Shown piece by piece: positions 27,249-61,432 of a stretch of DNA of 64,000 nucleotides (the stretch's first letter is position 1; each line of letters opens with the position of its first letter). This DNA is from Argopecten irradians (lineage: Eukaryota; Mollusca; Bivalvia; Pectinida; Pectinidae). Location: contig NC_091134.1 of the NCBI RefSeq assembly GCF_041381155.1, forward strand, positions 38,027,338-38,091,337, given 5' to 3'. Below the pieces are notes generated by a model. The model was not told the DNA's origin. It was given only the letters and a program-made list of their open reading frames with translations, and did no database searches. Both the position numbers and the translations under genes were made by a program.

Positions 27249-27545
27249 TTTGATATTATTTTTGGTTAGGAGTTACATGTATTTTAAGATTTAAAAATGG
27301 TTATAATTCATAACTTCTATTGAATTCCGCGATAAACAATGAACTTTTTTTTTAATTTCTAAATAGGGTATTTCTTTATTAGTTTATCCAATAGTTGAAA
27401 TCTTTTTTTAACATTTATATATATATTTTCATATATTATTTTTGGTGAGGAATTATTTTAAAATTTAAAAATGGTTATCATTCATAACTTCTATTGAATT
27501 CATTATTACCAAAAAATATATGAAAATACATATATAAATATAAAA
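27249..27545. repeat. Diverged direct repeat with an AT-rich inverted pair
   Basis: The segment containing ATTTAAAAATGGTTAT and CATAACTTCTATTGAATTC occurs twice (about 27249-27330 and 27432-27505). The second copy is enclosed by inverted AT-rich ends (TTTTCATATATTATTTTTGG and its complement near 27510-27545), as if a small foldback element had captured or duplicated the sequence. Confidence 0.55.
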
Positions 27546-27786
27546 AAATATTTAAACTAATGAATAATAATATGTATATAGAAGAAAATATTTTATGTGG
27601 GTGAGCGTTCTATACGTTTCTAGTACAATCTCTTCTGTTGCTATTTATAGCTGTTTGGGTGTATTTTTCGTGACAATGACGTATCAAAACAACACGCAAT
27701 ATATACACATGCAATATATGTAAACATTCTGTGTGATTCTCATGCGTGAATCAGCTATGGTTAAAAGATAATAACGATGTTTTACT

Positions 27787-28281
27787 CTAGGCCTGTGTAA
27801 GCTACATGTATATACATATTTCCTTCAGATCCGTCTGCTTGGGTGCCATGCTTCTAGGGACTCAGTAGTACGAGATATGCCTAGTCAGCATACACGTGTA
27901 AAGTAAATTATCAATAACAATTAATCTAAATCTGATTTTATGAAATATACTATTCAGAATTAGTTTGATAAGTCATTATATATTTTTTCCATTTATTGTT
28001 TTACTTGTTGTATAGATACATGTAAATAACATAAAATGTTAGGAAAGACTATACTTGCCACGTATACGTCCGGCCTATCTAAGGATATCCCATCTATGGG
28101 TGGGCTTTCCCTATCACAACTTATTTATATATACGTATTTCGCAATAATAGTGACGTAGATCAACCAATAATCTAGGCCTGTGTAGGCTACATGTATATA
28201 CATATTTCCTTCAGATCCGTCTGCTTGGGTGCCATGCTACTAGGGACTCAGTAGCAGACGTAGATTAACCAATGATCTAGC
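27787..28281. repeat. 82-bp direct repeat pair, second copy flanked by 24-bp direct repeats
   Basis: An 82-bp block starting CTAGGCCTGTGTA and ending GGGACTCAGTAG occurs at 27787-27868 and 28173-28254 with only two mismatches. The second copy is itself bracketed by the direct repeat GACGTAGATCAACCAATAAT with CTAG (28152-28175 and, with two changes, 28258-28281). It looks like a recent segmental or transposon-related duplication. Confidence 0.85.
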
Positions 28282-28331
28282 AAGATCAGTTCATGGTTAT
28301 TTTTAGTTATTGTTTTTTTATAAGACATTAG

Positions 28332-28405
28332 CAATCTCTCCAAGAGTGCATTTCGGTTACCCTTCATAAATGAAGGGTAACCGCAATGCACTCTGGGAGA
28401 GATTG
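28332..28405. mobile_element. 74-bp near-perfect hairpin element with 9-bp TSD
   Basis: Two 36-bp arms (left CAATCTCTCCAAGAGTGCAT, right the complement with two mismatches) are separated by two bases. They meet at GGTTACCCTTCAT-AA-ATGAAGGGTAACC. The hairpin is flanked exactly by the direct repeat AGACATTAG (28323-28331 and 28406-28414). A 9-bp target duplication suggests a Mutator-like or related transposase. The element is too small to carry any gene. Confidence 0.85.
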
Positions 28406-30220
28406 AGACATTAGATGGTTTCCATTAAAAATCTATTAAAGAGTTTTTTCATACATCGAAGTTTTATAACAATCTTACAAATAAGATAGCCGGCCAAACA
28501 AACTTTATATATACGGAGGTTGCGTTCTATTTTAACGCAAATCCTGAGTAGTAATTGATGATTACAGTGACATCAAGAAGTTACATTGCATGGGAAGCTG
28601 TGTTATACAGTCTCAAGCGACATGGGCGTATGAGAGAAGGATAATAACTTGTTAATCAAGTTATCGTGACAGGGTCAGAAAATATCATCTATAGTTCCAT
28701 TAGCAGAAAGGTATGTAGTTTATGAATATGAATACAGTATAAATTTAAAATAATGGTTATATATATATGATAATATTGGATTATAAATGACCAATTATAG
28801 TGACGGTTCTTTTAAATAAAAAAAATAGAACATTATCTTATTTAATCTACCTTTTTTAAATCAGTGTCTCTTAAATTTTTTTTCAGGATGGACATTTTAA
28901 TTTTTTTTTGCGGCACTATAATAAAATATATCTTAACTTATTCCGTAACTGTATACTATTTTCAAGTTTTCCCTTTCACCTAAAATCCATAGGAAAATAA
29001 TCAGTTAATAATTCCTTTCGATCAAAATGAAACATTCTAGGGGAATCACTAACGCCCACGCGATGACGCAGATGTTTCTACCCGAAACATTACGGGTGTA
29101 TTGATGAAAGTATATGTAGGTCATATATGTATAAACATATCACGCTTTCTACTTCTATTGTTAAGCAGGTTATGAAGGGAATACCCAAGTTATGAATCAT
29201 CTGATATATTTGTTTGTAAACGAAGTGAGATCTATGAGTTAATAATCTTATTAGCATTGTCTGTTCGGAATATCGAGCAACTTTAGACAGCCATTTGAAT
29301 AGATAGGGATACTGAAATGGCAGTGAATATATTTCATTCTCGATAGTCGTACTGACTGTCGTTTATGTGAGTAGTATATTCAGTTATTCTGCAGGTTAAA
29401 TATATCGAGTTCAAACAGTGATAATTATTAATGTTAATAGATGTTACACACATTGAAAGAAATCGTTCATGTTGGATGCAGAAACAATATTCAGGAGGTT
29501 TTGAAATATCCATTTCTTATGCATTTCTCGCCGAATGCATTACCGAATTTTGACATGAAGTGAAGAGTGGACATTAAAAAAACCAATATTAATTCTAAAC
29601 TTCTTCTATGCTGAACTAAATCCAGAAAAAAAACCCGGCCTCATACGTTTAACTGACAATATAGTAGCCTACTTGCATTTTCATTTCAATGTTACTATGT
29701 TATAAAAGTAGTTTCCGCTGGTTTTTTTTCTCCTGTATTTGAACATCGAACGCAATATCTTGTGACAGTGCAACGCTAATGTAATAATTTCAAAGAATTA
29801 CTTGATATAAATAGATATGTAATGTATGTGTGGTAATAATAACATCATTGATCGGTAACTCTTGAACTTGGTTTTTTATTTTCTAAGTCTCTGTCTTCTT
29901 GGGTTACCTGACTGTCTACTGAGAGTGGCCGTAAGAAGTATAGAGCTGTAGATCGAGAAAAAAAACGACTCTCGAAAAGTTAAATGATCAACCTTCTGAT
30001 TGCACTATAATGAGATGTCCCTCTCTATTTTGCAATTTGAAGTACGCTTTATTTACTCAAGTAGTTATAATGTGTGCTCTATTATCTTTTGATACAAATC
30101 TACTTTAATTCATACGTACAGTACGTATATTTATCCTTTCCACCTTTCATATATTCACTTATAAGGGTCAAATTAAGGTTTTAAGGTTTGGATAAAGGTT
30201 TCATTTTCAGTTTGGTGAAG

Positions 30221-30319
30221 AGTTTTGATGAATGTTCTGGAGTTTGGATGAATGTTCTGGAGTTTGGATGAATGTTCTGGAGTTTGGATAAATGTTCTGG
30301 AGTTTGGATAAATGTTTTT
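30221..30319. repeat. 20-bp tandem repeat, about 5 copies
   Basis: The unit AATGTTCTGGAGTTTGGATG (late copies end GGATA) is repeated in register. It explains the repetitive minus-strand open frame here, which is not a gene. Confidence 0.92.
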
Positions 30320-32600
30320 GAATATTTTTGTAGTTCGAAATCGAATTCTGTAGAACAAAGTATTATACATAATAATAAGGTAGCGTCAAACAAGCTTTCT
30401 TTCCTCAATACGCTTATTAATAATAAAATATAATACAGTAATTAAGAAATAATTTATCTGCAAGAAAAAGAACATTTATTCATAACATACGGCTGTATTG
30501 GAATTGTCCTTAATTACAAGGCTATATGATGACCAATTTGAATTACTCATAACCGCGTGAGGTGTACACGATATGAGTATATGTACTTAAACAGTTATGA
30601 CTGTATTAAACTTCCTAACTCACACATATTTTTGGAAGGAAATTGTAGTTCTGGTTTAAATTTACAAGGAAGAATGTACACGATATACAAAGAAAATAAG
30701 GATATCATGAACCGCATCTGTTTATCTTATTTCAAAATGTTCATATTAAGCACATTTACTATCCAGGAATTACCATGTAACGTATACGCGTATAAATGCA
30801 AATGTATGTTCTATTTTTTTCGGTTTCCACCTGTTTTAGTCTGTATATAAAAGTTTAAAGGTTTCTTATGTTCTGTCTATATAATTATAAGTTGATGTTC
30901 CGCATTAAACAAATTCATTGGATGTTTAGGTTTTTGTAGGTTAAACATTATATTACATTTTACTTGCGTTTTTAATCAGACAAAACTTCTAAATTTCACC
31001 TTAACCCATCATTCACAAGTATTATTGATGTTAAAATATATGTTCTTCTTTTTCTTTTTAGATTTCAATAAGACAATAGGATAACGTTATGTAAATTTTG
31101 TTTACAAAGGAAATAAACAGAAAAAATGTAGGAGTACCTAACATTTAAAAAAAAAATATAAAGTCATTGTACTTCAAAAAGTTTATCATTGAGTAATTTT
31201 ATACGACATATCATAAACTTCCAAAAACTATTTTGGAAAATTACTAACACCGATAGCTCATGAGTATCATTCACGGAAATTTCATAATCAAAACAAATAT
31301 GGACATGATAGTCCACGTAGACACAAGTATAAATAAAATTTGTATAGTCTATATTTAGCCGCAACCAGGAATATATACAGTGTATATTGTGTCAATTGAC
31401 AATCTGTTGCGTCATGGGTTAAATTCTGTCACGATCACTAACAACACTAAAGTTAATGCTGTTTATCTATTGTCTTTTGTAACTTCATATGCACGAGATT
31501 TCAGTGTATTACACATAAGAAAAATGAGCAAATACCTTTAAAAATGTTCATTTAGATTAAATTTTCTTTTATTATTATCATTACATATATGTTTACCATG
31601 AACATGAAATAAATTGAAAATAGGAACATTTGTCACAGATCATGTATACTTAAAACAAATAATATCTTTGGTACATATATTACAACATCATTCTTACATT
31701 CTCTCGAATTTACATTTAATATAGAACAATATTTTACAAAAATAATAAAAAAGACTAAAAAAAAAAAAACTTAACTTAAGTTGGTTGGGTGAAATATAAC
31801 TTAATTTATCATGTTTATATTTCGTCAATAGTCAAATAGAAATAAAAATAATTATATAGGGTTATACAGCTAAATATTGGTTTCAGCTAGAAGAAAATGG
31901 AAAAGAAGCAGTTCCATTTAGTACCAAGTCGAAACCTAACGAGTGTAGGTTTATAACAGGGGCGTGGTTTAAGGCCCCTTCAGGTGAAACTTATAAAGTG
32001 AAGGGTGAAACTAAGATTAGGGGTGTTGGGAAGGGGACTATTATGTTTTTCTCGATGTCATTGTTTTTACATATTTCTTTCCTGAGTCTGATCAAACTTA
32101 ATCCATCTTATAAGACTGTATGATATCCTGATATGCAATATTGCAAACCTTATACCGTTACTAGGGAAACATCTATATATAAAAAGACATGTATATCAAG
32201 CTTATCAAACACATGACCAGGTGATTATGATACCAGTATCAATAACACAATTATTTTATTGATGGTTTTTGTACCACATACAATATTTCCAACGACTCGG
32301 ACCATTTATTTAAAACTCTAGGTATATCATAAATATTTATCAATTTATAATTTTATATATCATGAGATATAATGCAACGTCATCTTTAACAAATGACTAA
32401 ACAATGATTAGAGTTATAATGTTATACAATTTTCTGAAATTTCTGAGACGCGATAATATTTGTAACAGAAATATTTATACAAAGTAGATAATTACATCGC
32501 ATACAATATGTACTTTGATAAAAAGGATGGAGTCACATATAGACATGACCCATTATATGTCAAGTGTAAAAATGACATGAAGATCGAAATATGCAATAAT

Positions 32601-32706
32601 CACAGGGGGGCAACTCAATGAAGATGGATGTTGTCTAACATTTTTTTGTATTTGGTGGATGGAATGATGATTATATATAACATTTTCTTTGAATTGGCCC
32701 CCTGTG
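32601..32706. mobile_element. 106-bp hAT-like micro-MITE with perfect 8-bp TSD
   Basis: Its ends are CACAGGGGGGCAACTCAATG and the complement of CACAGGGGGCCAATTCAAAG, an inverted pair of about 26 bp. It is flanked by the identical octamer GCAATAAT at 32593-32600 and 32707-32714. An 8-bp duplication with CAGGG-type ends fits hAT. There is no coding capacity. Confidence 0.85.
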
Positions 32707-33110
32707 GCAATAATGGTAAGATAGTGAAATTTTCTGGACTAATTTGACACCCAAATCAACTAGGTATATTTCCCCCTGTATCTATAATGTTTTCCTTATT
32801 ATAAATTGGCTGATTTACTCCAACCAATCAAAAATCGCCTCTTAACGCACAAAGGAAACAGCGAGCCTAAGTTTCAAATAGGAAATCACCTTTACTAAAT
32901 AAAGAACGCGATGTTTTAAAATAGACACACTGTGTAGCCAATCACGGATTTCTATTTACATGTGCACCATAGCTGTATAGATTATAGCTTAAGCAGAAAT
33001 TTCATCTAGCAACATGGTTTCTTCATTTAAGGTAGGTGTACACATTACAATTCCATTTCCATCATTTGTATTTTTTTCATTTAAATTTATATCTTGCAAG
33101 GAACCATAAC

Positions 33111-33212
<102 letters not shown>

Positions 33213-33249
33213 TGAATGTATTATGGTTATGCAGTATTTTTCTGTCCAT

Positions 33250-35140
33250 TTATAAAACAAAGGTGGGATATCATTTTTGGCCGTTTTACTGCCACTCAGT
33301 TTTAACATTAGGGTCAGCTATATATTATTATGCTCTTCAGAATATCCGATTTTTTTGTGCTCATGGTAAATGAGGTCAAAGGTCAAAATGTAAAAATTCA
33401 CACTTTCATTGTTGAAGTCCTTATTAATTAAATATTAGAATAGAAATAAAAAAAATGCAGTTTTTGCCTGTAAATATTGGGTTTGTGAAGTTCAGTTCAG
33501 TTCAGTTCAGAAAAATAATGAAAAATTCCAGAAATAGGTCACAGTGACCTAGTTAAGCATTTATTATATTTTAGCATTAAAAACTTTAATATTTTTGCTG
33601 AAAACTAGGATTTTTCAAAGCTATGATGAAAATATTTTAATTTGTCAACCATTTCAAAGCTTAAGAGACTCATGTTTAGCACGTGAATTGTATTTTGTCA
33701 CGATCTGCTTTAGGTTATTACATTCTGGGTTCAGATTTGCTTGGTCACGTGTATAAATTAAATTCAATGAAGTTTTTTGTCTGTCATTGAAGTATCATCT
33801 GGATTTTCCATGTTTAAAGCAAGTGTTTAAGCTTTTCAAGTCTGTTGTAAGAGAAAATATTAAGCAACACCTGCATTAAAAGTATGATGTTAGAATTGTG
33901 CCTGCTGCCTCATTGCATGATCGGAAAAGGCGACTAAATCTGGGATCTCAATTCTACTGGCTACCTAAATCAAAATATATTGGATTTCTGTCTCGAATGT
34001 CATAGGGAATGTTTCTTTCTCGGGAAAACATTCCTGTCACTGCAAACCAGTTAATAATAAGATAATACTCTCTCATGGTGAACACTAGATGTTAAATACA
34101 TGATATTGTTTTCCAAAGCCACGATATAAAGGTTCCATATTTAGTCGCCTTTTACGGTCAAGCAATGGAGCAGCAGGCACAGTTCTAACAAAATGCAGGT
34201 GTTGCTTGAGATTATCTCATAAAACAAACTTAAATAGCTTAAACACTTGCTTTAGATATAGAAAATCCAGAAGATGCATAATTGACAGAATATACTTTTC
34301 ATTGAATATGACCTAATTCATCCCCGTCACCCAGTTCATGTAACCCTAATCTGCCATCATCTTAACCAGATCATTACAGAACCTAAATAAAGCTCTAAAC
34401 GTCATTCTGGAACTATGGAATGATTGAAAATGTAAACTATTTTCATCTACGTAACTATGAAATAAAGATTCCCAATTTAGTCGCCTTTCACGATCATGCA
34501 GTGGGACAGCATAATTCAAACATCCTACCACAGTGATGGCGTTGCTTGAAATTAAGCTAATAAAACAAGTCTAGATAATTTGAAATCATGCTATAAACAT
34601 TGGAAAACAGCATATGCTTATTGGACAGATGATACCATTCATTGAAAAATGACCTATTTCATGCACGTGACCTAGCCAATGTGACCCTAGGATGTAATCA
34701 TCTTTAGCAGATCATGCGAAGATTCTTCTTCAGTACTAAACACCAATTTCAAGCTATCAAATCTTTGAAAAATCCTTGCTTTCAGCAAATTTATTAAAGT
34801 TTTTTATGCTAAAATAGAATAAATGCTTAACTAGGTCACTGTGACCTAGTTTTTGGATTTTTTCTGAACTGAACTTCACAAACCCAATATTTATAGGCCA
34901 AATATGCAAAAAAATGTTATCTCTATTCTAATATTTAATAAATTAGGACTTAAACAATGAAAATGTTAATTTTCACCCTTTGACCTTTGACATCTGAAAT
35001 TACCGTGAGCGCAGAAAAAAATCGGATATTCTGAATAGCATACAATATGCAGCTGACGCTAATGTATCTTCATACAAAATACCTCACTTATCACTGAGTG
35101 GCCGTAAAACGGCCCAAATTGATACAACTCCTTTATAAGT
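33250..35140. mobile_element. Large foldback (long inverted repeat) element with nuclear-receptor-like sites
   Basis: The left arm begins near GGCCGTTTTACTGCCACTCA (33279) and the right arm ends with its complement (TGAGTGGCCGTAAAACGGCC near 35095-35114). Pairing continues inward for 400 bp and more, including AGGTCACAGTGACCT (33536-33550) against AGGTCACTGTGACCT (34833-34847). A block containing TTTAGTCGCCTTTTACGGTC occurs twice in the right arm (about 34138 and 34478) and once inverted in the left arm (about 33930), so the right arm carries an internal tandem duplication. No ORF longer than about 60 codons exists. A family name cannot be assigned. Confidence 0.8.
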
Positions 35141-35216
35141 ATATACATATTTATTAACAGCAAAATTTTCAACATCACAATAATGCACACTTATCTAAAA
35201 TGTTTATTGCTGTATA

Positions 35217-35798
35217 ACGTGACGCTACCGAAATTGGAACACTTTTTTGTGTTTTAATCTAATTTTTTTTTCTTAATATTCCATGATTTGTTTACTTGTC
35301 AGTAGTGCATATATTTATAAATACAGAGCTTGGAAGCATGCCCGGTCCATCACTGTGTTTCAGCAGGTTTGAGTACCCAAAATGGAACACCTCCTAAATA
35401 AAGTTTGATTAAAAAAAGCCCAGACAAGATAAAAAAATTGAATTCATTTAAAGAAAGTTCAATCATTTTTTAGTTTATTCAAGTTACATCTCTTTCAAAA
35501 ATATTCCATTCAGCAATTGTTTTTCTTATTTTAAAATATATGGTGTTTTTAGGGTTGTCGCATGACGTCGTTTCCCGGAGTTTTTCAAAATTTCATTATT
35601 TTCATTTTTAAATACATACATGTATAGTAAGCAACTGGAAACAAAATGAAATATTAAAATTGTCACAGTTATTAGTCAGCACCTTAATTTTTGTTCATGA
35701 CAGTTATCGCTAGTTTAGATTGTAAACTGAAAATTCTGTATCACATATTTTAAAAGTGTTCCATTTTGGGTAGCGTTCCAAATTGGGTAGCGTCACGT
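35217..35798. mobile_element. Mariner/Tc1-type MITE, 582 bp, TA target
   Basis: The left end ACGTGACGCTACCGAAATTG is inverted at the right end, whose complement reads ACGTGACGCTACCCAATTTG. TA flanks both sides (35215-35216 and 35799-35800). At the right end the GGAACGCTACCCAAAATGGA segment shows that the terminal motif is duplicated. There is no transposase ORF. Confidence 0.75.
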
Positions 35799-36610
35799 TA
35801 GATGCATTTAAGTGTAATACACCAACCCTTGTTATGCTGTCTTATTACAGTTTTCAATGTTTTTAAAAACTTTACGTGCTTGAATATACATTCACATTAT
35901 GTTTATCAGTAGTGTAGTAAATGGTAGTAATTTAAAAAAAAAAGAGTTAAAAAAATAAATGAATAAATAAATAACATATAATGAAAAACAACAGATTAAG
36001 CCAATATTTACTTAATATATCGATATATATTATTACTAAGTATTGTAATACATTTGAAGAGTAAAACTGTGTTACTTTTTACATTAATTTTTAACAATGT
36101 TAATCTTAAAAATCGGCAAGGCAATCTGGATTACTGTTCTTGCATGAGGGGGTTTCCCTCTGGGAATCCATGAACTTGTTCTCGAAACTTCTATTAGCTT
36201 GTAAATGGCAGAAGTGAATTGACCAACTTTCCTGTGTAAGTCAATTGAAAATATTCAACCGCCAATATCATATCCTTTTTTTCTCGTACATGTTATGTGA
36301 AAACATTGACTTCGGTTTCCTTTCCGATTCCGATTCCATACAGAATGGTATTCAGTTAGCAATGTATAGCATGCGCACGTCTGAGGATAAATTTATTTTA
36401 AGTTTGTCGTAGTCAGGAATTGACAAATCATGCATCTATATTTAGTATTAGACTTAATCGACTTTTCTCTGTGTCTAAAGTATCCATAGAAATGACATAT
36501 TATTGTTAAATCTTCAAATCTCAAAATTCTTGAATTGGCAACAATCCAGTTGGAAATCCCCTTAGCCAAATTTAGCAAACAAAAAGCTATTTTTAGTTTA
36601 GGTAACATAA

Positions 36611-36942
36611 GAGTAAGATCATACTCAATACTAGAGGTTACTATCACTGAAATATAATATTCACTCCTGGATTATCTCATAGTAAAACTTGAGGCAGAAA
36701 AAAACTGACCAATCTCAGTCCTGCAAAGACTTCTTTTGAAGAATACAGAGAGAACGATCCCGACTTCAAAGCCAGGCAATCAAGCACAATATACCGTTAT
36801 TCGATTCTTTTGATGTACATCAAAAAACCAAATACATCTGAAATCACTCGTCTTATGTTGCCTGCAGTTTTACTATGACATAGTCCAGGGGTGTATATAA
36901 CGTCAGTGGTAGTAACTCCTGGAGTATCGAGGATGGAGTAAC
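36611..36942. mobile_element. Long-TIR MITE, about 330 bp
   Basis: The left arm (from GTAAGATCATACTCAATACT) matches the complement of the right arm (GTTACTCCATCCTCGATACT) over about 85 bp. The match includes CATAGTAAAACT on both sides (36678 and near 36880). The GGAGTATCGAGGATG motif resembles a repeat I recall from bivalve genomes. A related partial copy lies near 60700-60840. There is no coding capacity. Confidence 0.75.
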
Positions 36943-37056
36943 ATACATGTACATGATGTTTACATAATACTGTTTAAATAAAGTACTATAAATCCATATG
37001 TGAAATTCACTTTTTTACATTTAGTGAAAAACTGTGACAATCCTCCTGGACTAGGA

Positions 37057-37240
37057 AAGGAAGTTCCTCATTGTCATCATTCCAACACAGGCCTTCCTCA
37101 TTCCAATACAGACCGAAAAAATCTTCCGTTTTGCCATCATTCCAACACAGACCAAGAACGAAGATCCTCGATCAGTATTGTCATCATTCCAGCCCAGACC
37201 AAGGCAGATCCTCATTGTTATCATTCCAACACAGACTTTT
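37057..37240. repeat. Degenerate minisatellite, CATCATTCCAACACAGAC core
   Basis: Five or six imperfect copies of a roughly 25-50 bp unit with core TCATCATTCCAACACAGACC lie about 400 bp before the start codon of the downstream gene. The open frames on both strands here come from the repeats and are not genes. Confidence 0.8.
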
Positions 37241-37629
37241 GAGGGACTACTGAACAGTACGCCTGCACATGGATGAAATGACATACCTACCAATGAAATG
37301 CAGCTCATTTCAAAATTGGCAAGGAAAAAGGAGCAACGCCTTAATGCTTTACGAATTTTGCTTCCATATCCCTAGCGATTAAGGTGACTTTTTCATTTCA
37401 TCATTATTTTGGTTTTTATATCAAACTTAAAGAAATCATATGTTTATACTTCATTTTCTGCATATCTTCACTTGCTTGATCCTATTGACTATAACTCGTT
37501 TTCTATAACTTGTTCAATGTGTTAATCACTGGTGTGTTTTTGTTTCAAGTCGTAGAGTGAGTTCATTTGCTGATTATTTTAACATTTGTGAACTGTGTGA
37601 ATTTAAAATCAACGTTCAAAATTACAAAG

Positions 37630-40600
37630 ATGCCTTCGCCCATCGATCCTCGCAGTATGGATCTTTATGCCACTCCTCATACGGCTTCTCCGAAAGAGTG
37701 TAGAAACGAACAGGGTACAGTAGTACATATGAGACATCTTGCTGCTGGAGAAGAAACTCGTTTACCAAGAAATAGTGTAAACACACCGAACGGAATTAGT
37801 GTTAACATTGCTAGAGATGGAATGGAGGGATTGGAAGACCGCACAGCAGCCTCTGATGATGACAACATCATTGATGATATTGCAAGTGTGGGAGTTGAAG
37901 GAAGGGAGGAACTCGGAACAGTGCCAGATGAACTTTCTCAGTATCAGTCGTCAAATAACGTAGAGGTAAGTTTATTGATCCTAAAGATGAATCAAATTGT
38001 TATATAACATTATCTGGGGTCGATTGTGTCTTGGTACGCGACGGTGAAATGCAGAAATATTGATTAAAAAGTTAATTTTACATGATTCTGTATATTATAT
38101 TGCTGTTCGAAGAAGTTGAAATTTATCCGAAACCTCGTACCATAACGAGGTGCTGCGTGTATTTTCTTCAATACTCGACTATTTTAAAGTGTAATACCAT
38201 TGTCAAATAATTTCGAGTTAATGAGGTTATCAGTTAATGAGGTTATTAGTTAATGAGGTTACCAGTTAATTAGGTTACCACCAATAAATTAGCATGTAAT
38301 GTATTATTCCTTGCAATACGTTTGCATTTGTTTTCTGGGTAAAACGCATTCATAACTTCAAGATAAAGGCAATGAATTGACGTCTACATCAGCATAATGC
38401 ATTTAAAGCGATCATACGTTTGAAATTTTGAATTAATATCCATTAAGGTTATCTGTTTAAACGTGTGTTTTGAATAACATTTTGCATGCAATAAAAACAT
38501 CTTAAAGTTGTATTCAGGTCTTACAAATTCTAGGAAAGTACTATGAATGTTTTCATTTACGCACTCTTAAGTTTTTACAAAAAGAGAATTTCAACGACTC
38601 GTCTGATAAAAATTACATATTCAAAGGTCTTGCATATGTATTGTATATACATTGGAAATAAAGTTATTTTCATACTCACGAATCAAAACAATATTACTTA
38701 CAATGCATAGGTTTTAATATCACAAATACAACTAAGAGCTGAAAATGAGCAGTACTGCTAAAAATCCTAATATTTACATTTACAATGCAGTGAAATGAGT
38801 ACATACGGTAAAACGATGAAGCCAAGATGTGGTCTGCGATTTCACTTAACAATTATTCAGTGTTATAATAGCTATAAAGTGATTTCTGCAGGAATTTTTA
38901 CGTTTTAACAAACATAAGTATACAAAACAATAATTTTACAGTGCACAAATTATGTGTTGTAACTAACGTTTAAAAGCCATCATACATATTTTTCAATTAA
39001 TGTCAATGGTTTGCAATAGATAAGCTACAGAAGAAGAACAACATGTCAAAATGTTTTATGTTAATGAGATAAGCCGAAAACTGTACTACATGTGCGAGAG
39101 GGTACAGCAACGAGGCCCGTAATAGGTAAATCCGGTACATTCCATGAAATATAACACAAAAAGAACAAAAGGATTTACGCTAACTGTGTTTTGATAGTTA
39201 TGACACATATGACTTTAACTGTATACTTCAGGAAGTCCCGATCTATTTAAATAGGGACTTGTCACCTTAAACCAAAACGAGGATGAAAACAATGAAACCA
39301 AACAAAACGTTATTGTGGAGATGATAATGAGGGGTTACAATCCTATCCGTGTCCAATCAGCCGTGGACGCAATTTTGTCAAGTATGTAACTCGTGTTATT
39401 TGTATATTGTTTTTAAACAATTTTCTTTGTATATATGAAAATTTGGCAGTTGGAAAGAAGTTTTTAAACGCTTTCCATGTATACATTTGGGTTTCATTTT
39501 TTATATGAGGATTTATCACAAATATTAAAGTTCAAAAATTTCTTTTTGTACATCGAAATTGATCAGAATGTTTTTAACTTTTTTTGTATGTTTCACGCAC
39601 ATGCGCATTAGACACAAGTGTTCAAATGTGAATAATATAATCACCTTATCGGTAACAATTTCACTCTGTATTGAGATTATTATTGAAAAAAATCTGTTAT
39701 TCAATGAAAACATGTTACTTCCCTAAGAGCCATGGTATGTTATGATTGTCATTTAAAGCAAACTATAAATGGATACTTACTGAACTATCATATCCCTATG
39801 TCGTTTTAGATGACCCAAATGCAACGTTGACGCCGGTGGCCGTGGAGCACAATCTGCAAGAACGGTCACTTAGTCAGGAGGGATCCGAAAATGTCGTTAT
39901 GGTCGGTGCTGGATCAGAGAGTATACAATGTCGGTGTCTATTCCGTCTTTACATATTAAAGTTACCTTCCTTTTGGGTCGGTATTCATCGTCACGTCGTT
40001 GTTTTGTGAGTGGAATTCACGTCGTTTTCTCTGAAAACTGTGACGTTATGCTCACATGACGTCACAATCAAGAACATCCCTGCAAGAACAGACAACTTTG
40101 CATAATATCTATATATGTGTTCTCAAGTTTTGCTATATGTGCATTTACTAATGTTAAATATATTATAGCAAAGGCATGACAAATTTACTGTACGAAACAA
40201 AATATAATTCTTGAAATCCTTTCGATTTTCAAAGGATCCAGTTCCTCATTTGTACTAGCTTTTGTTATGTAAAAGTTACATTTGTTGTAAACGTTTATCC
40301 GGTTATTTACGAGGGTCAAACTATTCACTATTTGAAAAAAATAGTGATTTTAAATTTCCGCTATTTGACTATATAACAAGTATTTTAAGTCTTATCTAGT
40401 AATCTTCACGTTTGGTTACGACTTCATTCGAAATTCTCAATGGCTAGTTACCAGATGCAGAGCTATATCTCTAACCTGTCTTCAGATACTCCGGCTTTCA
40501 TCCGTCTCTTTACATTGACATGTCTTTAATTAACTACATATTATATACAGGTCATTAGACAAAATAAAACAAAGACCTTAACTATTCTCATATCGTTTGT

Positions 40601-40809
40601 TTTCAGATGATAAGCGAATGCAGATGGAAAATAAAAAGTGGAGGGAAGCCTACTTGTGTAAAGTCTGCTATGAAGATTATATACGTGAAGTATTTCTGCC
40701 GTGTGGTCACCTGGGAAGTTGTAATAGGTGTTTTCAAAGCATGAATGACACATGCAATATATGTAAAAAACACATTGTGTCGCGCACTCTAGTTCACAAT
40801 GATGTTTAA
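37630..40809 (+). CDS. BIR-less IAP paralogue: acidic N-terminus, UBA, spacer, IAP-type RING
   Basis: Four exons: 37630-37965, 39255-39381, 39810-39920 and 40607-40809. They join at phases 0/1/1 into 258 aa. Residues 1-112 (from MPSPIDPRSM) hold no BIR and end in an acidic stretch (SDDDNIIDDI). Exon 2 encodes a UBA-like segment (VEMIMRGYNPIRVQSAVDAI), found because its phase was required. Exon 4 has a complete C3HC4 RING (CKVCYEDYIREVFLPCGHLG, then SCNRC and TCNIC) preceded by MENKKWREAYL, as in IAPs. The exon order and phases are the same as in the three last exons of the minus-strand IAP at 22358, so common origin is likely. Predicted role: E3 ligase, perhaps pairing with or competing against BIR-bearing IAPs through the RING. 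The tail SRTLVHNDV differs from the usual IAP dimer-forming tail (TVKTWLG in the neighbour). A TTTGTTTCAAG acceptor at 37552 suggests an upstream untranslated exon. Confidence 0.8.
39938..40115. mobile_element. TIR element (CATATTACAGAGTT family), copy 3
   Basis: The left TTCCGTCTTTACATATTAAA and right CAACTTTGCATAATAT segments are inverted relatives of copy 1. It contains TGACGTCA at 40057-40064. It lies in the third intron of the BIR-less IAP gene, 17 bases after the donor of exon 3, and extends the apparent open frame there. Confidence 0.7.
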
Positions 40810-42600
40810 TGAGTCCTTAAGTCATAGTTAATTGGTAGACAGATTTTGTGACATTCGTTTGATTTTTAAACTTTTTACTTTATTTGTTTTGTAGGAGTAG
40901 TCCATCGTACTTTCGCCTGTCATTGTTTTGCTTTGAATCACTATAAGACATTAAAAATATGTTGATGAAATATAGTATAGCCCTATGAGAATAGGAACTG
41001 CTCTAGCCAAGCTGAAGGAGAATCAATTAACATAAAGGAAAAAGAACATTTTAAAAATACTTCTGCAAATGAAAAGATGAGAAATATGGTCCCAAATAAG
41101 TTGTCGTTATCGTAGGTTCATTGTGTTGAACATTTATTGTTCTGTTTGTCCTGACCTTTCAGTAGACAATATTTTGCCGTTATCCGCTAAAGAGCAGGAT
41201 GCAATGTTCAATACAATACGTCTTTATTATATTTTATGAGCACTCTGCTGACTGATTGAAAGGAATAGAAGAAAATATAACATTTTCTATGATTCCTTCC
41301 TTTACAATTATTTGAAATCTGTATATATTTCGGTAAAAGGAATAAAATTTGTATTAAATGTGGAGCTTGACAACTAACACCCAAAGACGAAGGGTACAGT
41401 TCTGAAAATATTCTATGATGTATTCGGACATAACAAATTGTTTTATAGCATGGAATCCGGATTTCCAAATAGTCCCAAGGATAATGGTCAAAAAGGAAAA
41501 AGGAAACATTAATAAATTACGTAACTGTGTGCATAGAACCAAATGCAGTAGGAACTGTGCGTCAAGGCATCGAGAATAGGTTGTCCTTCAATGGATATAT
41601 ATGACTGATTTCTTAAACAAAGTAGTAAGACCACAATAATTTGATTATTATCATTTTTCATTATCATTTATTTCCATTATAATTTATTGGTAAAGAGGAA
41701 CAAACTTGTAAAACCAATGACACAGCCAATTGAATTTTGTCTAAAATGAGTCTGTAGCAAAGTCTCTGAAATCCTCTTGGTGTAGTAACGAAATGGTGTG
41801 GTCTACTGTTAACCAACTTACTTTCGTAGCTACTAAATTTCGCAATTTCCGTTTTAAGGATGTATTCTTCAGAGGTTTCAGTCCAGTTGAAGTCTCGTTT
41901 TGACATGGATCAAAAGAGTTATGAAATTTTCAAACACATGTAAAATTTATTAATATCTGTAGCAAGTTGCCAGTTACAAATTTTGTAAAAAAAAATACAA
42001 GGATATTAAGAAATGGCTTATTTGACGGCCATTTCAAATTCGTGTCTTTTTTCGCTTTGAGTAAAGCCATTGTTTTACCATTTTTTACTTAAATCATCAC
42101 TGCGCCAGCATTTTTAGTTGTATCGAGCTATTTTTTGCTGTAAATTTTTACTAGGCTCGTGGTAATTAGTCATTTTATTTTTACATTTAATGGTAATTTG
42201 AGCACTTTTATTTTTTAATCTAAAATATTGAAAATTACCAAAATCTTTAAATGGGGCAAAAAGTAAGCATACAGAGCCCTCCATTTTTCTGCTGATATTG
42301 TTGATATGAAAAATATTGACAAAAGAATCTTTAGATTTAGCAAATATGGGTGAAAATGGTGCATTTTATAGCTCAAAATTAAGGTGTAGGGTCAGCATTT
42401 GTTGCTATTGTGAGAAAAAATATGAGTCTTATTATTCATAACTGGTATATTTTTAAAGAAGACTACTTAAAAATAAATTCTACAAATATCCATGCATATC
42501 AAACACCTTATTGGGAAATTATGAATTTATTTCCAAAAATCTATATAAGAAAAAAAGTTTAATACAAGAAAATTTTGACTTCTCAGAGGAATACATTCTA

Positions 42601-44205: not shown

Positions 44206-46637
44206 TTAAATAATCCGTCAGTTACACTATAATGTATCATATTTACCATTTCTCAATGATATCATGGAGATAGCGGCAGTATCTACAAGAGAGACGAACA
44301 AATCATTCCAACATTTATGGATACTGTCATGATTACACTTACTATGTCAATTTCACAAGAGTTACGTATCATATAGTCGGGTTTTGTTTTCGAGTGGCTC
44401 GAGCGGTTCCGTTGAACATTGCTATGTTCGGGAAAATTTGATTTGCGAACAATTGAGAAACGGATTATTATTATTTATACGTTCATAGCCAAATCGAGAA
44501 ATTCAAAACCATTTCAATTTAATCCGCGTATGAAGACCATATCGTGTAAAGTTTGATGAATTGTTTGTGACTCACGGTAATAAGCGGCTATAAGGGATGT
44601 CTTTTTCATGCCGACAGTTACGTATGTCATTTTTCAAACTGGGAAACTGGAAAATAAATATTGTCTACTTTGGCGGATTTACCATTTTAATTGTGTGGCA
44701 TGAACGTTTTTTTTTTACATGTCTTCCCCACAAATAAAACGAATCAAAAGTTTACTTACGGTATCTGGCAATCAAATATGTAAAAGAATAATGCATGTTA
44801 TTTAGTTCAACTCGACTGTTGTGATTTAAAAATCGTGAGATTAATGTTACAGGTCTGTATTAAAGAACTGTTAGGATATTTACAGTCAGTGTGGTTGAAA
44901 TTGTTGATATGATTTCGAAGAAAATGTGTACAGTCATGCACTTCTCTTAATTAATATGATATGCTGAAATTAAACAGAATATCAATGTACTCATAGGACA
45001 ATAACAACGGAATTCTATACTGCAGTCAGTACGTGACTAGACCTACCTTCTGAATAAAATTATAAACGTGTAGTTGTAGTATACCTGTAATCAATGATCA
45101 CATACTACCCCTACCAATTGTAACTACACCCACATTGCATATTTGTTTACAATGCTGGCCGACAAATAGAACAAAGTTGAAAGTTCATCGTACACTTCTC
45201 GGAATTTATATTCCGGATATGCACTCTTAAAATACTTATTCAAATTCACTGTAAGCATGCAGTTCCGATCTGATGAAATATGCCTATGTGTAAACATTCC
45301 CAATTAATACTTATCCGGCTAATATAACACAAATTGTGAAACAAGGTAACCAACCTGGATACACTGTAAGGTAGGTACACCTTGCATTTGTGCAGTCTAT
45401 TTTTCTATTGGAAGCAATCAGTTGTTTGCAAACCTGTTCAGCTGAACCATACTTCATTCTCGCTCCATTTTAAATTTTTTTGTCATATTTGTTATATTTA
45501 TTTTATGCATACCGATCTAATTTGACGATGCCATGTATGTTGTTGCAATAATAGTCAAAGATATCGGATCAATCTACGATAGATCGATTTGCAGGTACGA
45601 GTGTTGCAGTCAAATCAAAGATGGCGGCTCGTGGTCAAAAGTCCAAATATAGCCCACGACAAACGTATTTTGTTAAAATCAATATATCGTTTGTCACCCG
45701 ATTATTTTTTTTCCAAATTTAGCCAGGTGGTACATTATGATGCTACCTGTAAGTTGACACATCATCTGTTAAAAAACGGTTACAATGCAAATGTAATGGT
45801 AGATAAGATAGATATTGTCCGATTAACATGATGTAAGATGTCAATGATATCAAATACAACGGTTATATATATGTTTTACAAACTACAGTTCTCTTTGCAA
45901 ATTCAAGATTTCGGAAATTTCAAGAAAGACTGAAGAACTTTGAATATTCTTCGCTAAAAAGTTCATCTCTTTGCGAATGCATGTTATTTAAGAAAATATA
46001 TTACATACAAATGGTACTTACTAGGTACCCTTTTCCTATTGATGTTTGTTTGCATTTGGCAATAGGTTTTCTATTCATCTATTAGCATACACCTTCTCTG
46101 AAATCTCTCACTTTTTATTTTATTCTTTTTTATCAAATGATAATTCGGTCAATTGGTGGGTTCTAAGGACAATACATTTGAAACCTGAAAATTTAAGTGC
46201 ATATCCATATATGTAAAGGTTACATTATACTTTTATTTGTTTGAAAAAGTTCCCGCAGTTTCATTTCAGCACGCTAAAACGTTTCAAACGCAGGAATGAT
46301 CCCTTATTACTTAATATAAGTAACCAAGGAATCAGGATACTGAATAACCGAAAATACAGAATATTGAATACAAAACACAGAATACTGAATAAGAGAAAAC
46401 ACAGATTATAAATAATAAATTAAAATATATATATAAATAAAAGAAAATATAGAATATTAAATACATGTAATGTAACAAACACATCCAGTTTCATCATGGT
46501 TACTTCAATGCAATAATTGTAAACTAAAATAAAGAAACAAGTCAAGTTCAATCGCACGGACCGGTAAGCTTGGGTACCCTTCATTGAATTTGGCGAAAGT
46601 ACGCTTCTGTAGTTAATCCTTTACGTTTTCGTTACAG

Positions 46638-49600
46638 TACTCGTTATATTACAATTATGGCAGCGAAGTACCCAGAAAGTGATGATGACGAAGATTGTCA
46701 TTCCTCATCGTATCAACTAACTATTCCAAGGGTACTGATTGAAGGGGAAACGGTTTCGGAAGCAAGGGTACAGACTGAAGGCAGTACGGTAGGAAAGATA
46801 CCGGTTGAAGGAAATACGGTCGCCGACGCTAGTGATACAGAAGAAATAGATTTCAAAGGATCACAAGTTGCTTTTTATCGTTCTTGGTCGGAAGGAAGTG
46901 ACGGTAGCAATAGCAATGCTTCTCTGAATGTAGAGAGCTCAAACTTTGCGAAACTTTTTCTTTTGTCATCAAACATTTGTCAAGATGTTATGCGTGAGAT
47001 CATTCGCAAGAAGAATCCTGAAGGTTCAACAGATGCCGATTTGCATAAACTTATTTCCAACAGCGAAATGTTACGGAAAAAGGTTGATCATTACACAAGT
47101 GAGGCAATGCTTTTGTTTCCGAAAGGTGGAGAAACAGTACGCTACAATCAATTGGATTTTTCTGCAATGTATAAAGTTGTTAGGTATGCACTTCCGAACC
47201 AAATTGCACCATGCCAGTCTTGGATTACTTCACCGAAGCCTGGGTCAGAATGTCTAGTAGCATGCATAGAAAAACTTCGTAAATTTCGAAACGACTGCTC
47301 ACATTCAGCAAGTGGATCGATCAGTAAACCAAATTTCCAGGTAAAGGTCAACGAAATCACTAGTGTGATAATTCGGATTGAACATTTGCTAAAAACACCA
47401 AAGAAGTTTTCTCATCGGGTGAGGCGTCTAACGAAAGCGTCACTTTCACCACGAACGACCGAGCTAGAAGCACGGTCTGTCAATCTTGAGAGAGAAATCA
47501 AGGAGCTGAAAGGTTCTCTTGTCAAGCAGACCGAAATAACAGGTATTTCTGTTTTGGTATTTTCGAAATAGTGTTAGTTTTTAATTTTATATTTGACATT
47601 ATCTCTCCTTATTATTTCCATTTGTAAATATCAAAGTTTGGGATTGTCAAAAAACGTATAATTTCTGGCTCTAAAATAATGTAAATTTGAAAAGTCCTAG
47701 AAATAATTATCACGAGACTCAACGAATGATATTTTTAATGATATGTACTCGAGTTTGTGTAATATTTACACGAATAAAAACGAATTGAAATGCTTATGTA
47801 ATTGTTAGAAATGCAAAGTAATCATGGATAACACATTTACTCAGCAGTTACTCTAACGCAAATTGTAATGGTGACGTAAAACCTTGCATCACGATAGCTG
47901 ATTTAAGAAGAATGCTAACATGACACGCTTTAATTTCAGGCTTATTCAGCGAATGGAAAAAACATCAGCAGGAACTCCTAGAAGTGCACAGCAAGCTGGA
48001 AGACCTTTATAAAGGTATTCTACAACTATGTGCCATTTAAACTTATTGCTTACGGTATTAACGGTAACGCAACATGTAAACTTTGAATTTCAATTTGAAC
48101 CTATTGTTCTTATTTTGTTGCCGTTGGTTTTGTTTCCAAAACCGCACCAAAAATGTTATAAAAACTTCCCGCTCATAAATTAAAATTGAATTGTTATTAA
48201 TGAGGTTTTGGGGTCAGATGATAAATAGGAAAAATACAAGCATTGAGCAGATGAGTTTGATCAGATTGTTGAAAGTGTTCCCTTTATTTTGATACAGCAT
48301 CAACCTCGGATGTCGACGAAGAACTTCCATTAGTACAACGAAATCTGAATGCTGAATCCATAGGAGGTAAATATATTTAAGATAAATCAAGATAAATAAA
48401 GATATTTAAATCTAATATATAATAATTTGAAAATTTCAAATTGATAAATTGGTAAAATAATGTAATGTTACGAAACGCCATAGCTGTCAGGGATCAAGTA
48501 TACTACATAGATTTGTGTCTTCATTTGTAAAATGGTTTTATCATTGTGTGAAATGGAAACACACTATATAAGTTATTTGAAATATATTATTTTCATTGTA
48601 GTGAATACGAAACAAGATAAACTAAATCTAATTTTAAAACATATAAACATGGGCATACGGTATTGCAAATTTCCGTTTTCCAAATTACACTGTCAATATC
48701 TTTCCAAAAAAGAAACGTCACATTTCATGTGTTTTGGTTACCGAGATGAAACAGTACATAGTGTCTGCCAGATCGGTATTTATTTATTTTAACATAGATC
48801 AAACAGGTTTGTTTAATTATATTTTCTTCACGGTCACAGTTATAGACAACAAATAAATGTCAATTGGTTTGTTTTCGTTTTTAGAGTCAATGAGGGAGAC
48901 GTTCAGAGATTGCCTTGCAGAGGAAGATTTTTTCTGCGAAACCAACGGTACACGGAAAGCCAAGAAGTATTTAGATGAAAACCACTGGGTCATAATTGCG
49001 GGCCGCAAAGGTAATGGGAAAGAACGCCTTGCGCACCACTTAGTGTTATCATTAATGTCAGAGACAGAATGTCAGACACATGTATTAGACGGTGTAAATG
49101 ATGTAAGACATTGCTTTAAACAAAAATCACATGAAACTGTTGTTGTGTTGATAAGTGATGTACTTATCGATGAAGCCACAAAACGAACAATTACAAAACT
49201 GAGTAAAGAATTTTTTAAAGGTGGTTCAAAAAAATATCTTGTCATCACCTCTCTCTACACAAAACATCTAGCAGGTCTGTCAAATTTAGTCAACCTGTCG
49301 ACAAAACAATTTGAACTCACATCACAAGAAAAAACAAACATTTTGAAAGCACACCTTAATCAAAGAGCAGAAGAGGAACATATCTCTAGGAATCGTTTGT
49401 CAGAAAGAGAAATAAATGAAATTGTAAAGATGAAATGTTCATTAGAATTCCCTTTAGCATGCGCACTCTTTACATCAAAGGCCAAATACTATTCAAAGGG
49501 AGTGCTTTTCTTTCGATACCCTATAGATTATTTTTTGGGGGAATTGAAATCATTGGCAGAGGATCCGAGCAGAAAGTTGTTCTTTGATTTATTGCTCCGA

Positions 49601-52600
49601 CAACATGAAGGATCTCCTTTTCATTTTGTCAATGGCAATCAATCAAATGACATAAACGACGTAGATCTAGTCCGAAGACTGCAGAGGGATGATTTAGACC
49701 TGAGTGACCTTGCAGAAATTGGCGAAGATCTCGCTAGAGAAGGTATTCTCATTCACAAACTACCAAATACTCAAAAAGCTTTCACATTTAGCAATGAAAC
49801 AGTGGAGAAAGCAGCGCAAATTTGGTTACTAGAAACAAATTTCTCGAAGGCATTAGACCTTTTGAGTTCTGAAACTCTGTTGTATTGTGTTGAAATCGAT
49901 CCTGGTTTGGAAGAAACTTGTTTATATGTCCCAAATTCACGAGATAACAAAAGTCGTATTGCGGAAAAGGTTATTGATGACATTTTATCTAAAAGGGTAA
50001 GTGAAACAATCTGGGACTCAAGTCTAAGAAATTGGTACAACAAAGAGTTTGTGGACCTTTTGGCTGAAATTCTCGTTAAGAGACTCGAGAATAAATCCGA
50101 ACGTTATAGTATAGTCTCCTCAATATTGACAAAGTGTGTTACGCATCGTTTGCATGGTTTGTGTAAGGCCTTAGTTGAAAGACTTAGAAAGGCAACCTTC
50201 TTCGAAAGCGAATATACAGGGCTTGTATCACAAGCGTTACTCAAAGCTGCTCAAGTTCACGGTAACATGGACGTTCTAAAAGAACTCATTAAAAATGGGG
50301 CTGACATAAGTTTCTGTAAGAAATGTGCCAATAGGCCTGACACAAAACACAAATGTGCGCTTGAACATGCGGCTGAGGCAAATGATCAAGATGCAATACA
50401 TTTTCTACTGCAGTCTGGTGCAACAATTCCACACAGCAAATGGAAATTTTGGAATTTTTTGAAGGTGGCCGCCAAGTCACAAGATACGTTTGTGTGCAAT
50501 GATACTTTCATCAAACAACTCTCTGTGTGTTGTAGAAGTAAAGTAACTACTGTAAATACGAAGATGGACGAATTTGTAGAAAGGTCTTTAACTCTCAATC
50601 CAGATGACGAATATGATCGCAACCAGTTGTTCTTCAATTGTCTTTTATTGGTAGGAATAGATCATAACTTACATGATGTTTTTAAATCAACTGTAATTCA
50701 CACTCAGAAATTACCGAAGGACAATCAAGGAGAAAACTCTTGCCACAAAATTCTTGACTCATTCCTTGATCCTGATATGGAATTTCGTACATTGGGCACA
50801 CTTGCAAATGTGGAGTTTGACATGCTCAACGAGAGGAATAACTCTGGATGGACCCCTTTACTGAAAGCTGTTTCACTTCAGAAGAGCGACAGAATATTGT
50901 CACAGATGCTACTTCAAAATGCCAACGCTGACATAACAGATTCTAATGGAAGAACTGCACTACATTTGGCAATTTCATCACAGTATCCCGACACCTGGGT
51001 CCTTCAATTCGTAAAGGCATTATCAGGACCCACTATCAAATGTATGGATATAACGAGTGCTACTCATCTTCGTCTATGTTTGGAAAAAGGTCGCCATCGC
51101 ATTGGCACTCTGCAACAACTGCTTGCACTACATAGAAAGGAGGGCACATTACCGACTTCTTTAGTACACGATTGTCTTGATATGTCATTAACCGAGGAAG
51201 AAATGTTGGAAACCTTATCGGTCCTGAAACAAGTCGGTGCAGACCCGAATACCGAGGATTCCTGTAAGTCAAAACCGTTGGCAAAGGCTATGAAGCTTTC
51301 ATATTTCAGCATTGTTATCACTTTGCTTGAATGGAAAGCAGAAGTAGAAGATATAGACAGTCAACAAAACACACTATTACACTATTGTAGCTTGCTCGAT
51401 GCACCAAGCGGACAAAAACTTCTCGACGGATATAGCAAATATCACCCAAACAATGATGTCATTGTCAATAGGAAGAACGAAACTGGGAAAAATGCAATAA
51501 TGGCCTACTTAGCCGAGCCTACTACCGTGTGCAGCACGAGCATTCTCTGGCGGTTACTAAATATGGAACCAGATCTCACATTGCAAGACGAAAACGGAAA
51601 TACAGCGTTACATTACTTAATGCAGTCTACGCTACCTGATGAAGATGTTTTAGACTTTACCCAAGTTATGGTCAACGATTTATTCGCATCTGTTTCTATC
51701 TGCAACAAGCGTTCTTTGAGTCCGCTGATGGCAGCGTTTACTGCTGGGAAATCCCGATACAATACCGTAAAGTTTCTCTTGTCAATGCAAGAATACCAAA
51801 CCCCTATACAGTCTACTGAAAGGGGAGTCCTTCATCATTGCATTACAAGTTGTATGGAAGATGAAGAAGTACATGAAATATCTGAAATTTTGATTCATCA
51901 ATGTGGGATATCCACACACGAGAGCGATGACAATGGGCTATCCCCCTTCCTTGCATCCATTAAACACCAGTCATCGCGATGCAAAACAATTGCCTTGATT
52001 CTCAAATGCTCTTCAAGAGAATTGTGCGATGTCGTGCTTTCAGACCTCATAAAACACAACAGACTTGATGCAGATATTCTGCAAGCAATACACACGGCAA
52101 ATATTCCTATTTTCAAGCCAACTGAAAAACAAGGGTACTCAATATTCCATTTTCTCCTTCACAATGCCAGTCATTCTCTTGTATTCCACGATCTTTTGAC
52201 TGCTGCATTGCTTTTTGAACACGACATTAACCATATTGACTCAGAGGGTCTTTCGCCATTATTTCATGCATGCAGAGATACTTATCCCGAGTCGGTCGTC
52301 ACTTGGTTTTTGATGAACGGTGCTAGGGGGCACATATCAACAAGGCACGAATCCGCCTTACATCTGTGTATTAGGTCAAAACGAAATGACACAGAAACAA
52401 TGAATATCGTTCGAGGCTTCCTTCGAAACAAATGTGTAGCAATCGACGCTTGCGATTCATACCACACAACGCCTCTGGCAGAAGCTGTTTGTCAGGGAAA
52501 GCTGGTCACAACAAAAGTCTTACTAGAACACGGAGCGGACCCCAACCTCCCCGACAGAGAAAATAGAACGGTATTGCACCATAGCGTAGCAGGGAAATGG

Positions 52601-53161
52601 TCCGACCAAAAAGCCTGTGCATTTCTGCAGTTGTTTCTACCATTATGTCAGATCGATCGCAAAGATGGCGATGACCGTACTGCCTTACATGTGGCTGCAG
52701 CCCATGACTCCTTCAGTAGAATATTCAGTATATTAAAGCTACTAACCGCTGGTAGCAAAACAAAGATGGTAGACCGCCTCGGTCGGTCACCTCTGCATAA
52801 TACATTAAAGCTCATAACAAGTAATGTAGCATGTTGCAAGTTGGAAAGGCTGTGTCGCATTCAGCTATTTCTTCATTTTGGGATAAGTCCCATCTGCAAG
52901 GATGATAATGGCGAAAAGCCGATTGACATATGCAAGAATAAAACAATGCTGGACGAAATTAGACTTTTGAACAAAGAACTTGATGCATTAGAGCCATGTG
53001 AACAGATTCTGTCGATGTTACAGGTAGGCGAAAATGGCTTGGATCCGGAACTTCCTACATTTACTGAAGATTCCGGTAAAAGGGTTATAACCGAGCGCAT
53101 GTTTAATTTGATGGAGAAAATCGCTTACCAGTTACATGATATTGATATGTCATCATGTTGA
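46638..53161 (+). CDS. HEPN - coiled coil - P-loop (STAND-like) - ankyrin repeat protein
   Basis: Coding exons are 46657-47542, 47940-48014, 48298-48366 and 48885-53161. All internal joins are phase 1, giving 1768 aa. The acceptor TTTTCGTTACAG at 46637, 19 bases before the ATG, implies a leader exon. After an acidic N-terminus, residues about 92-245 form a DZIP3-like HEPN domain with RNDCSH (R211, H216), the Rx4H ribonuclease-type motif. A coiled coil (about 265-320) and two short phase 1-1 exons form a linker. The 4.3-kb last exon begins an NTPase: Walker A-like GRKGNGKE (383-390) and Walker B-like VVVLISDVLIDE (429-440). The usual Ser/Thr after Lys is Glu here. Residues about 800-1690 hold a dozen or more degenerate ankyrin repeats (GNTALHYLM, DDRTALHVAA, LLEHGADPNLPD). 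The layout is that of an NLR-like immune receptor with a repeat sensor and a HEPN effector; ligand and activity are unknown. Confidence 0.88.
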
Positions 53162-61205: not shown

Positions 61206-61432
61206 CAATATGAATGACTAAGATCATTGAGACAATGATGACTACCGCCATTGATGACATTCAAATATTATGTATTATTTAAATGTTTTGTCTGTTGTAC
61301 TTGTTCTAATTGACAGCTTTAACTCTATTATTACTTCCATTACGACCAGATCCATTATAATTGTAATACTGTCATTCAGAAATGGTCTGCCTGCTGGTAG
61401 CATGATCGCACCTTTGGGGATGATTTGATAAA

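Follow-up and report, generated by a model that had tools for sequence, protein, structure and literature searches.

The way in which an IAP-type RING promotes ubiquitin transfer has been described in cIAP1. In this protein, the donor ubiquitin of one protomer is held by Arg614 and Phe616 of its partner, so that the RING tail acts in trans, while Arg606 is the linchpin; replacing the tail Phe by His (F616H) impairs ubiquitin transfer (PMC6349121). RING heterodimers in which one partner is inactive and the other active are also known, as reported for MDM2/MDM4 and RNF2/Bmi1 (PMC12326332). With respect to the UBA domain, which has three helices in IAPs, XIAP is reported to depend on an MGF/LV motif to bind ubiquitin (PMC3240630).

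In bivalves, the hard clam has been credited with 159 IAPs, called the largest set of any metazoan (PMC7831173). The oyster and hard-clam censuses are described as having kept only BIR-bearing genes (PMC8917759, PMC7831173), and a scallop survey as having confirmed the BIR by HMM and SMART (PMC7893105); on these descriptions a BIR was required, and such censuses are thus blind to BIR-less genes. Among open-access titles and abstract openings, which are no proof of absence from print, we found no BIR-less IAP RING gene in molluscs, and the sole "BIR-less" case that the literature search returned is an isoform of human NAIP (PMC2685007).

Here we consider a locus of the scallop Argopecten irradians lying in a stretch of 64,000 nucleotides (positions 38,027,338 to 38,091,337 of contig NC_091134.1), hereafter the window, in which all positions below are counted. 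This locus is most likely a real four-exon gene of about 258 codons, an old and fast-diverged IAP paralogue without BIR.

A four-exon gene with the intron phases of IAPs

The four exons lie on the forward strand, at 37630-37965, 39255-39381, 39810-39920 and 40607-40809, and once joined they form a single open frame of 777 nt, i.e., 258 codons and a stop, with the places and phases that the earlier note had given them. Exon 1 brings the start codon and 112 codons and exits at phase 0, exon 2 runs from phase 0 to phase 1, exon 3 from 1 to 1, and exon 4, which enters at phase 1, ends with the stop codon. The existence of exon 2 had been deduced from the need for a phase 0-to-1 exon between exon 1 and the RING exon, and this deduction is borne out by the joined frame and by rank: exon 2 comes first among the 49 phase 0-to-1 candidates of the 37966-40606 interval, when splice matrices (approximate, and drawn from general knowledge) are combined with a codon score, and among 300 introns simulated as order-1 chains, 3 equal its score. 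As to exon 3, the six best of the 64 candidates of phase 1-to-1 all use its acceptor at 39810, and its score was never equalled in 300 simulated introns.

Splice sites are of unequal quality. The donor of exon 1 is strong (7.8 bits); the acceptor of exon 2 (39253-39254) is weak, and a better AG located 23 nt upstream would lead to a stop. The exon 3 donor at 39921 is poor (-5.4 bits, a score equalled by 53% of the GTs of the window) and only the third choice, as the in-phase sites at 39930 and 39906 total higher, giving alternative 3' ends at 39929 or 39905. This donor is therefore uncertain, and the product may have 258 aa or be a few residues longer or shorter.

Coding signal was measured with a codon model whose training set was made of four further open frames from the window, one of them the first exon of the neighbouring IAP, and compared with 516 open non-coding pieces of the window. 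Codon usage as high as that of the exons was found in 1 of these pieces for exon 1, 8 for exon 2, none for exon 3 and 44 for exon 4. Of the six frames, the claimed one scores highest in exons 1 to 3; in exon 4, another frame scores slightly above it (0.060 vs 0.035). G+C content is 0.37-0.53 in the exons vs 0.28-0.33 in the introns, and the openness of the exon 1 frame is matched by 13 of 20,000 composition shuffles.

The protein encoded by exon 1 is acidic (pI 4.4) and has no match in Pfam, nor do exons 1 to 3 have any other match in their own genome at E up to 0.1 (846 Mb in 1508 contigs, of which C1 to C16 span 34.5-75.5 Mb, the window being on C1, of 75.5 Mb). It had been described as acidic and unlike any familiar domain, and so it remains. 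Matches of exon 1 to "Pizza" proteins, found at the top of the PDB list, were discarded as repeated short and weak matches, none of them above 7.4 bits in the two alignments displayed. The locus also includes, in intron 1, a dispersed repeat of about 290 bp (38695-38981, forward strand) with at least 40 other matching rows at 76-80% identity (40 of 4971 candidates scored); its matches overwhelmed a DNA search that took the entire locus as query against the genome. AATAAA was rejected as a marker of the gene end, since there are too many of these motifs in the window (203, against a mean of 171 in shuffles).

About 6 kb downstream, on the same strand, lies an NLR-like gene, made of a HEPN_DZIP3 frame (46588-47568) followed by a 1434-aa open frame with an nSTAND3 NTPase and ankyrin repeats (48857-53158). 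The proposal that exon 1 is the first exon of this HEPN gene was rejected, as the HEPN frame has its own ATG at 46657. Further along, also on the forward strand, an acidic frame with repeated ADDPRI-type units (61424-61939) is followed by a second HEPN_DZIP3 frame (62420-63373).

A complete IAP gene located nearby on the minus strand (22358-25551), encoding two BIRs, a UBA-like region in exons 2 and 3 and a RING, was used as the yardstick for phases. At its best splice sites, its exons (25551-23311, 23112-22935, 22796-22668 and 22554-22358) show a phasing identical to that of the four-exon gene, so that the order proposed beforehand, with UBA (0 to 1), middle exon (1 to 1) and RING (1 to stop), was reproduced. 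Best-scoring sites also give a 0-to-1 UBA exon and a RING exon entering at phase 1 in five other IAP genes (L029, L037, L039, L040 and L042), where only 1-to-1 middle exons were looked for, the phase of this exon following from those of the flanking ones; as L039, L040 and L042 belong to one cluster on C7, these are not five independent cases. Both BIRs of the neighbouring IAP are within one exon, which does not fit the published description of hard-clam BIRs as being mostly divided between two exons (PMC7831173). Just past the 3' end of this gene, at 21600-22260, a degenerate array of units like TTTTGTCTGCTTCCTCCCCGATGAATTG can be seen by eye.

An IAP-type RING without BIR

Exon 4 encodes a helix with the IAP "EN" motif, a complete C3HC4 RING and a degenerate tail of 14 residues, and thereby places an IAP-type RING at the C-terminus and in the last exon, as in IAPs. 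All eight zinc ligands are kept (C-K-V-C ... C-G-H ... C-N-R-C ... C-N-I-C, 40657-40764, forward strand). When the product was searched with profiles, the RING was recognised (Pfam zf-C3HC4_3, E 9.1e-11) and no UBA was reported. The first RING relatives among solved structures (PDB) are XIAP, BIRC3, MYLIP and BIRC2, and a profile of 31 RING sequences, including this one, leads to BIRC2, BIRC3, XIAP and BIRC7, and then to MYLIP. AlphaFold2, run on the same 31-sequence alignment, gives a mean pLDDT of 90.2 for the RING and the preceding helix. The position of the intron points to the same family: a splice site that precedes the first Cys codon by exactly 50 nt is common to 25 of 44 IAP-type RINGs (own counted) vs 4 of 34 others, and is the best acceptor in 23 of the 44 vs 1 of the 34.

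Phylogeny was less decisive. A RING tree was built from 72 rows (81 RINGs minus 12 long-loop ones, plus 3 human) and 64 columns; its best position for this RING is inside the IAP group (86/82), where the earlier note expected it, with a bootstrap that had not settled, and the AU test does not reject a position outside (p 0.458). The end branch is long (1.77 vs a median of 0.52), and the RING carries, between ligands 6 and 7, a one-residue insert that is absent from the other 30 aligned RINGs. When the genome was searched with an E limit of 0.1, the two top RINGs besides this one showed 38% and 44% identity to it. Identity of the RING exon is 30% with the neighbouring IAP, 39% with the RING of the L037 gene (L002) and 35% with another locus (L036); since the RING is no closer to its neighbour than to several others, the gene looks like an old family member rather than a recent copy of the neighbour. 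A search of viral contigs found no close relative of the RING exon, and a viral origin was set aside on the basis of this single-protein query, which reaches close relatives only.

As for the BIR, which is present at least once in every member of the IAP (BIRC) family as defined, none was found for the four-exon gene. A genome-wide search (at least 143 places; 150 of 191 candidates scored) gave nothing near the locus except the BIRs of the neighbouring IAP, on the opposite strand, and the nearest upstream BIR on the same strand among the matches listed, in a search known to miss some, is 4.57 Mb away. Similarly, tblastn with the BIRs of the neighbour and of L029 over the window detected only those of the neighbouring IAP below E 0.1, and a four-sequence BIR profile found none over 26001-41000 (best E 1.3). 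The claim that the locus is a BIR-less IAP paralogue is thus well supported: it has an IAP-type RING, the intron phases and intron position of IAPs, and no BIR found within reach.

This gene may not be alone. In a first count over 51 RING loci listed as IAP-type, 37 had an upstream BIR on the same strand and 14, including this one, had none. However, when six of the remaining 13 were read over 8 to 9.5 kb of upstream sequence, BIR-like exons came to light in three (L118, L119 and L120), whereas no BIR was found over that distance in L116, L117 and L121. The genome-wide list of BIRs is therefore incomplete and the first count of 14 too high; BIR-less RING loci besides this gene may exist, in a number below 14, and possibly form a small class.

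A worn UBA-like segment and an altered RING tail

In the complete IAPs of this genome, exon 2 holds UBA helices 1 and 2 (xxHPAVxSVMEMGYxK...), and in five of six genes exon 3 opens with helix 3 (AEKLLxVVWxIEE-like), the motif not being clear in L037. The earlier label of "spacer" for exon 3 does not hold, given that real IAPs encode helix 3 at the start of this exon. Exon 2 of the four-exon gene would encode UBA-like helices 1 and 2 (VEMIMRGYNPIRVQSAVDAIL). An ungapped BLOSUM profile, built on 28 hand-aligned columns of five IAP UBA exons, places it second of 1278 pieces of the window, behind the UBA of the neighbouring IAP, and with six exons in the profile its score is reached by 6 of 20,000 shuffles; an HMMER UBA profile ranks it only 105th of 1804, and recovers the UBA exon of the neighbouring IAP, when this gene is left out of the model, at rank 1 with an E of 0.0016. 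A UBA query from a paralogue hit only 8 places in the genome, exon 2 not among them. That Pfam reports no UBA says little, since the UBA of the neighbouring IAP is equally unreported. Exon 3 does not match helix 3 in the ungapped profile (14,329 of 20,000 shuffles are as good), and only this test speaks on helix 3, as the HMMER helix-3 model missed the neighbouring IAP's own exon (rank 110). The identification of exon 2 as a UBA is therefore suggestive only. The MGF motif reads RGY in exon 2, the Met being replaced by Arg, and no LV can be identified, so that binding of ubiquitin by this segment seems unlikely, and the suggestion that the product binds ubiquitin chains is not supported.

In the RING and its tail, the residues at positions 606, 614 and 616 of cIAP1 numbering, assigned by distance from the last Cys, are Lys, Leu and His; the tail has one extra residue at its end and no F, Y or W. 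The aromatic residue that acts in trans in the cIAP1/BIRC7 mode is thus missing, with a His at the position of Phe616. In addition, the equivalent of Pro603, in the C-P-x-C motif, is an Asn, this position being a Pro in 33 of 46 IAP-type RINGs. From these replacements, the RING has probably lost the working end of its ubiquitin-ligase domain. The designation of the gene as a ubiquitin ligase is hence undermined by the replacement of the tail Phe and Arg of cIAP1, and a ligase that binds ubiquitin chains is doubtful, in view of both the RGY of exon 2 and a tail His that, as reported for cIAP1, impairs activity (PMC6349121).

The tail position is aromatic (F, Y or W) in 27 of the 46 IAP-type RINGs, this one being counted, and is another residue in 19. 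Of these 19, 12 are not flagged as BIR-less, and BIR-like exons lie upstream of two that are flagged (L062 and L069). This gene is therefore not the only one to have lost the tail Phe, a loss that these animals may tolerate.

Among the RINGs of this genome, a cluster of very similar IAP RINGs lies on C7, at 39425463, 39435302, 39463295 and 39567995 (L004, L008, L003 and L040). They end in KAIVS or KAIIS, with an Ile at the position of the cIAP1 tail Phe, and have BIRs upstream nonetheless.

Possible roles and comparison with known systems

Our best guess for the role of the gene is that its product pairs with IAPs as a natural modulator. The protein would begin with a new acidic region, continue with a worn UBA-like segment and end in an IAP-type RING; lacking BIRs, it would have no usual means of binding caspases or IAP antagonists. 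The RING would fold and, together with the preceding helix, pair with active IAPs of the same cell; bringing no working tail in trans, it would poorly activate the E2~ubiquitin of its partner, and this pseudo-ligase partner would thereby dampen the ubiquitin-ligase activity of IAPs. Such a function for an old BIR-less paralogue is a plausible proposal, somewhat short of an even chance. It is supported by the gene structure and phases, the coding signal (weak in exon 4), the RING matches and intron position, the best tree, the retention of the eight ligands, the replacement of the Pro603, Arg614 and Phe616 equivalents by Asn, Leu and His, the reported defect of cIAP1 F616H (PMC6349121) and the known pairs of an inactive with an active RING (PMC12326332), and weakened by the poor splice sites of exons 2 and 3, the result of the AU test, the loss of the tail Phe in other genes and the insert in the RING. 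In a bolder version, the BIR-less gene would be a natural dominant-negative regulator of IAPs that selection has maintained for its ability to pair through the RING; it would carry by nature the Phe-to-His change with which cIAP1 was crippled in the laboratory, and would be one of a class left out by BIR-based censuses; taken as a whole, this version is unlikely.

As the main rival reading, the locus could be a decaying copy of an IAP that lost its BIR exons, whose frames are open by inertia and which is no longer well expressed or spliced. The weak acceptor of exon 2 with its stronger stop-giving decoy, the weak donor of exon 3, the unrecognisable helix 3 and replaced ubiquitin-binding Met, the degenerate tail, the long end branch and the lack of any close copy in the genome would all be expected of such a relic, but all four frames are open, exons 1 to 3 have coding-like codon usage, and the eight ligands were retained far beyond what neutral change would allow. 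Indeed, when the RING exon of L037 was left to drift neutrally to at most 42% identity, in simulations with substitutions alone, 3 of 4000 runs kept the eight ligands and 1 of 4000 was also open. Conservation of these ligands indicates that selection has probably acted on the RING fold, for much of its history. Decay is, on the whole, rather unlikely.

It is also conceivable, with a still lower probability that we regard as slight, that the gene encodes an active BIR-less ubiquitin ligase, directed to new targets by its acidic N-terminal region. The RING core is complete. It keeps the Val that faces the E2, as well as the two residues, His and Ile, through which cIAP1 contacts donor ubiquitin, and the linchpin Lys is still basic; XIAP, with a Tyr there, is reported to remain an E3 with reduced activity (PMC12326332). 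Nevertheless, the Asn in C-P-x-C and the Leu and His of the tail, the latter being the same change that is reported as defective in cIAP1 (PMC6349121), do not favour this possibility. Lastly, a reading without a single gene, in which exon 1 is part of another transcript and the RING exon a stray 3' exon from an IAP, is very improbable, as the absence of an IAP relative for exon 1 and the weak exon 3 donor are opposed by matching phases, rank-1 exons, the coding signal of exons 1 to 3 in the claimed frames and the separate start of the downstream HEPN frame.

If BIR-less, ligase-impaired relatives such as the pseudo-ligase partner proposed here are expressed, the IAP family would contain its own brakes. 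With regard to the mode of action, the proposed pairing of an inactive RING with an active one would resemble that of silent RING partners of the MDM4 (MDMX) and Bmi1 type, which belong to different families. The BIR-less isoform of human NAIP is similarly a BIR-free product of an IAP-family gene, but it is reported to arise from an intragenic promoter and to carry an NBD and LRRs (PMC2685007), whereas the four-exon gene has a RING and no BIR found at all. The closest likeness is to BIRC2/BIRC3-type (cIAP) genes and the expanded IAPs of bivalves, in which, too, the last coding exon carries an IAP-type RING and is preceded by a UBA-like exon; the likeness in intron phases comes from comparison with the IAPs of this genome. 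The four-exon gene differs from both in having no BIR, an unrecognisable helix 3, replacements of the ubiquitin-binding Met and of the tail residues, and an acidic N-terminus with no known relative.
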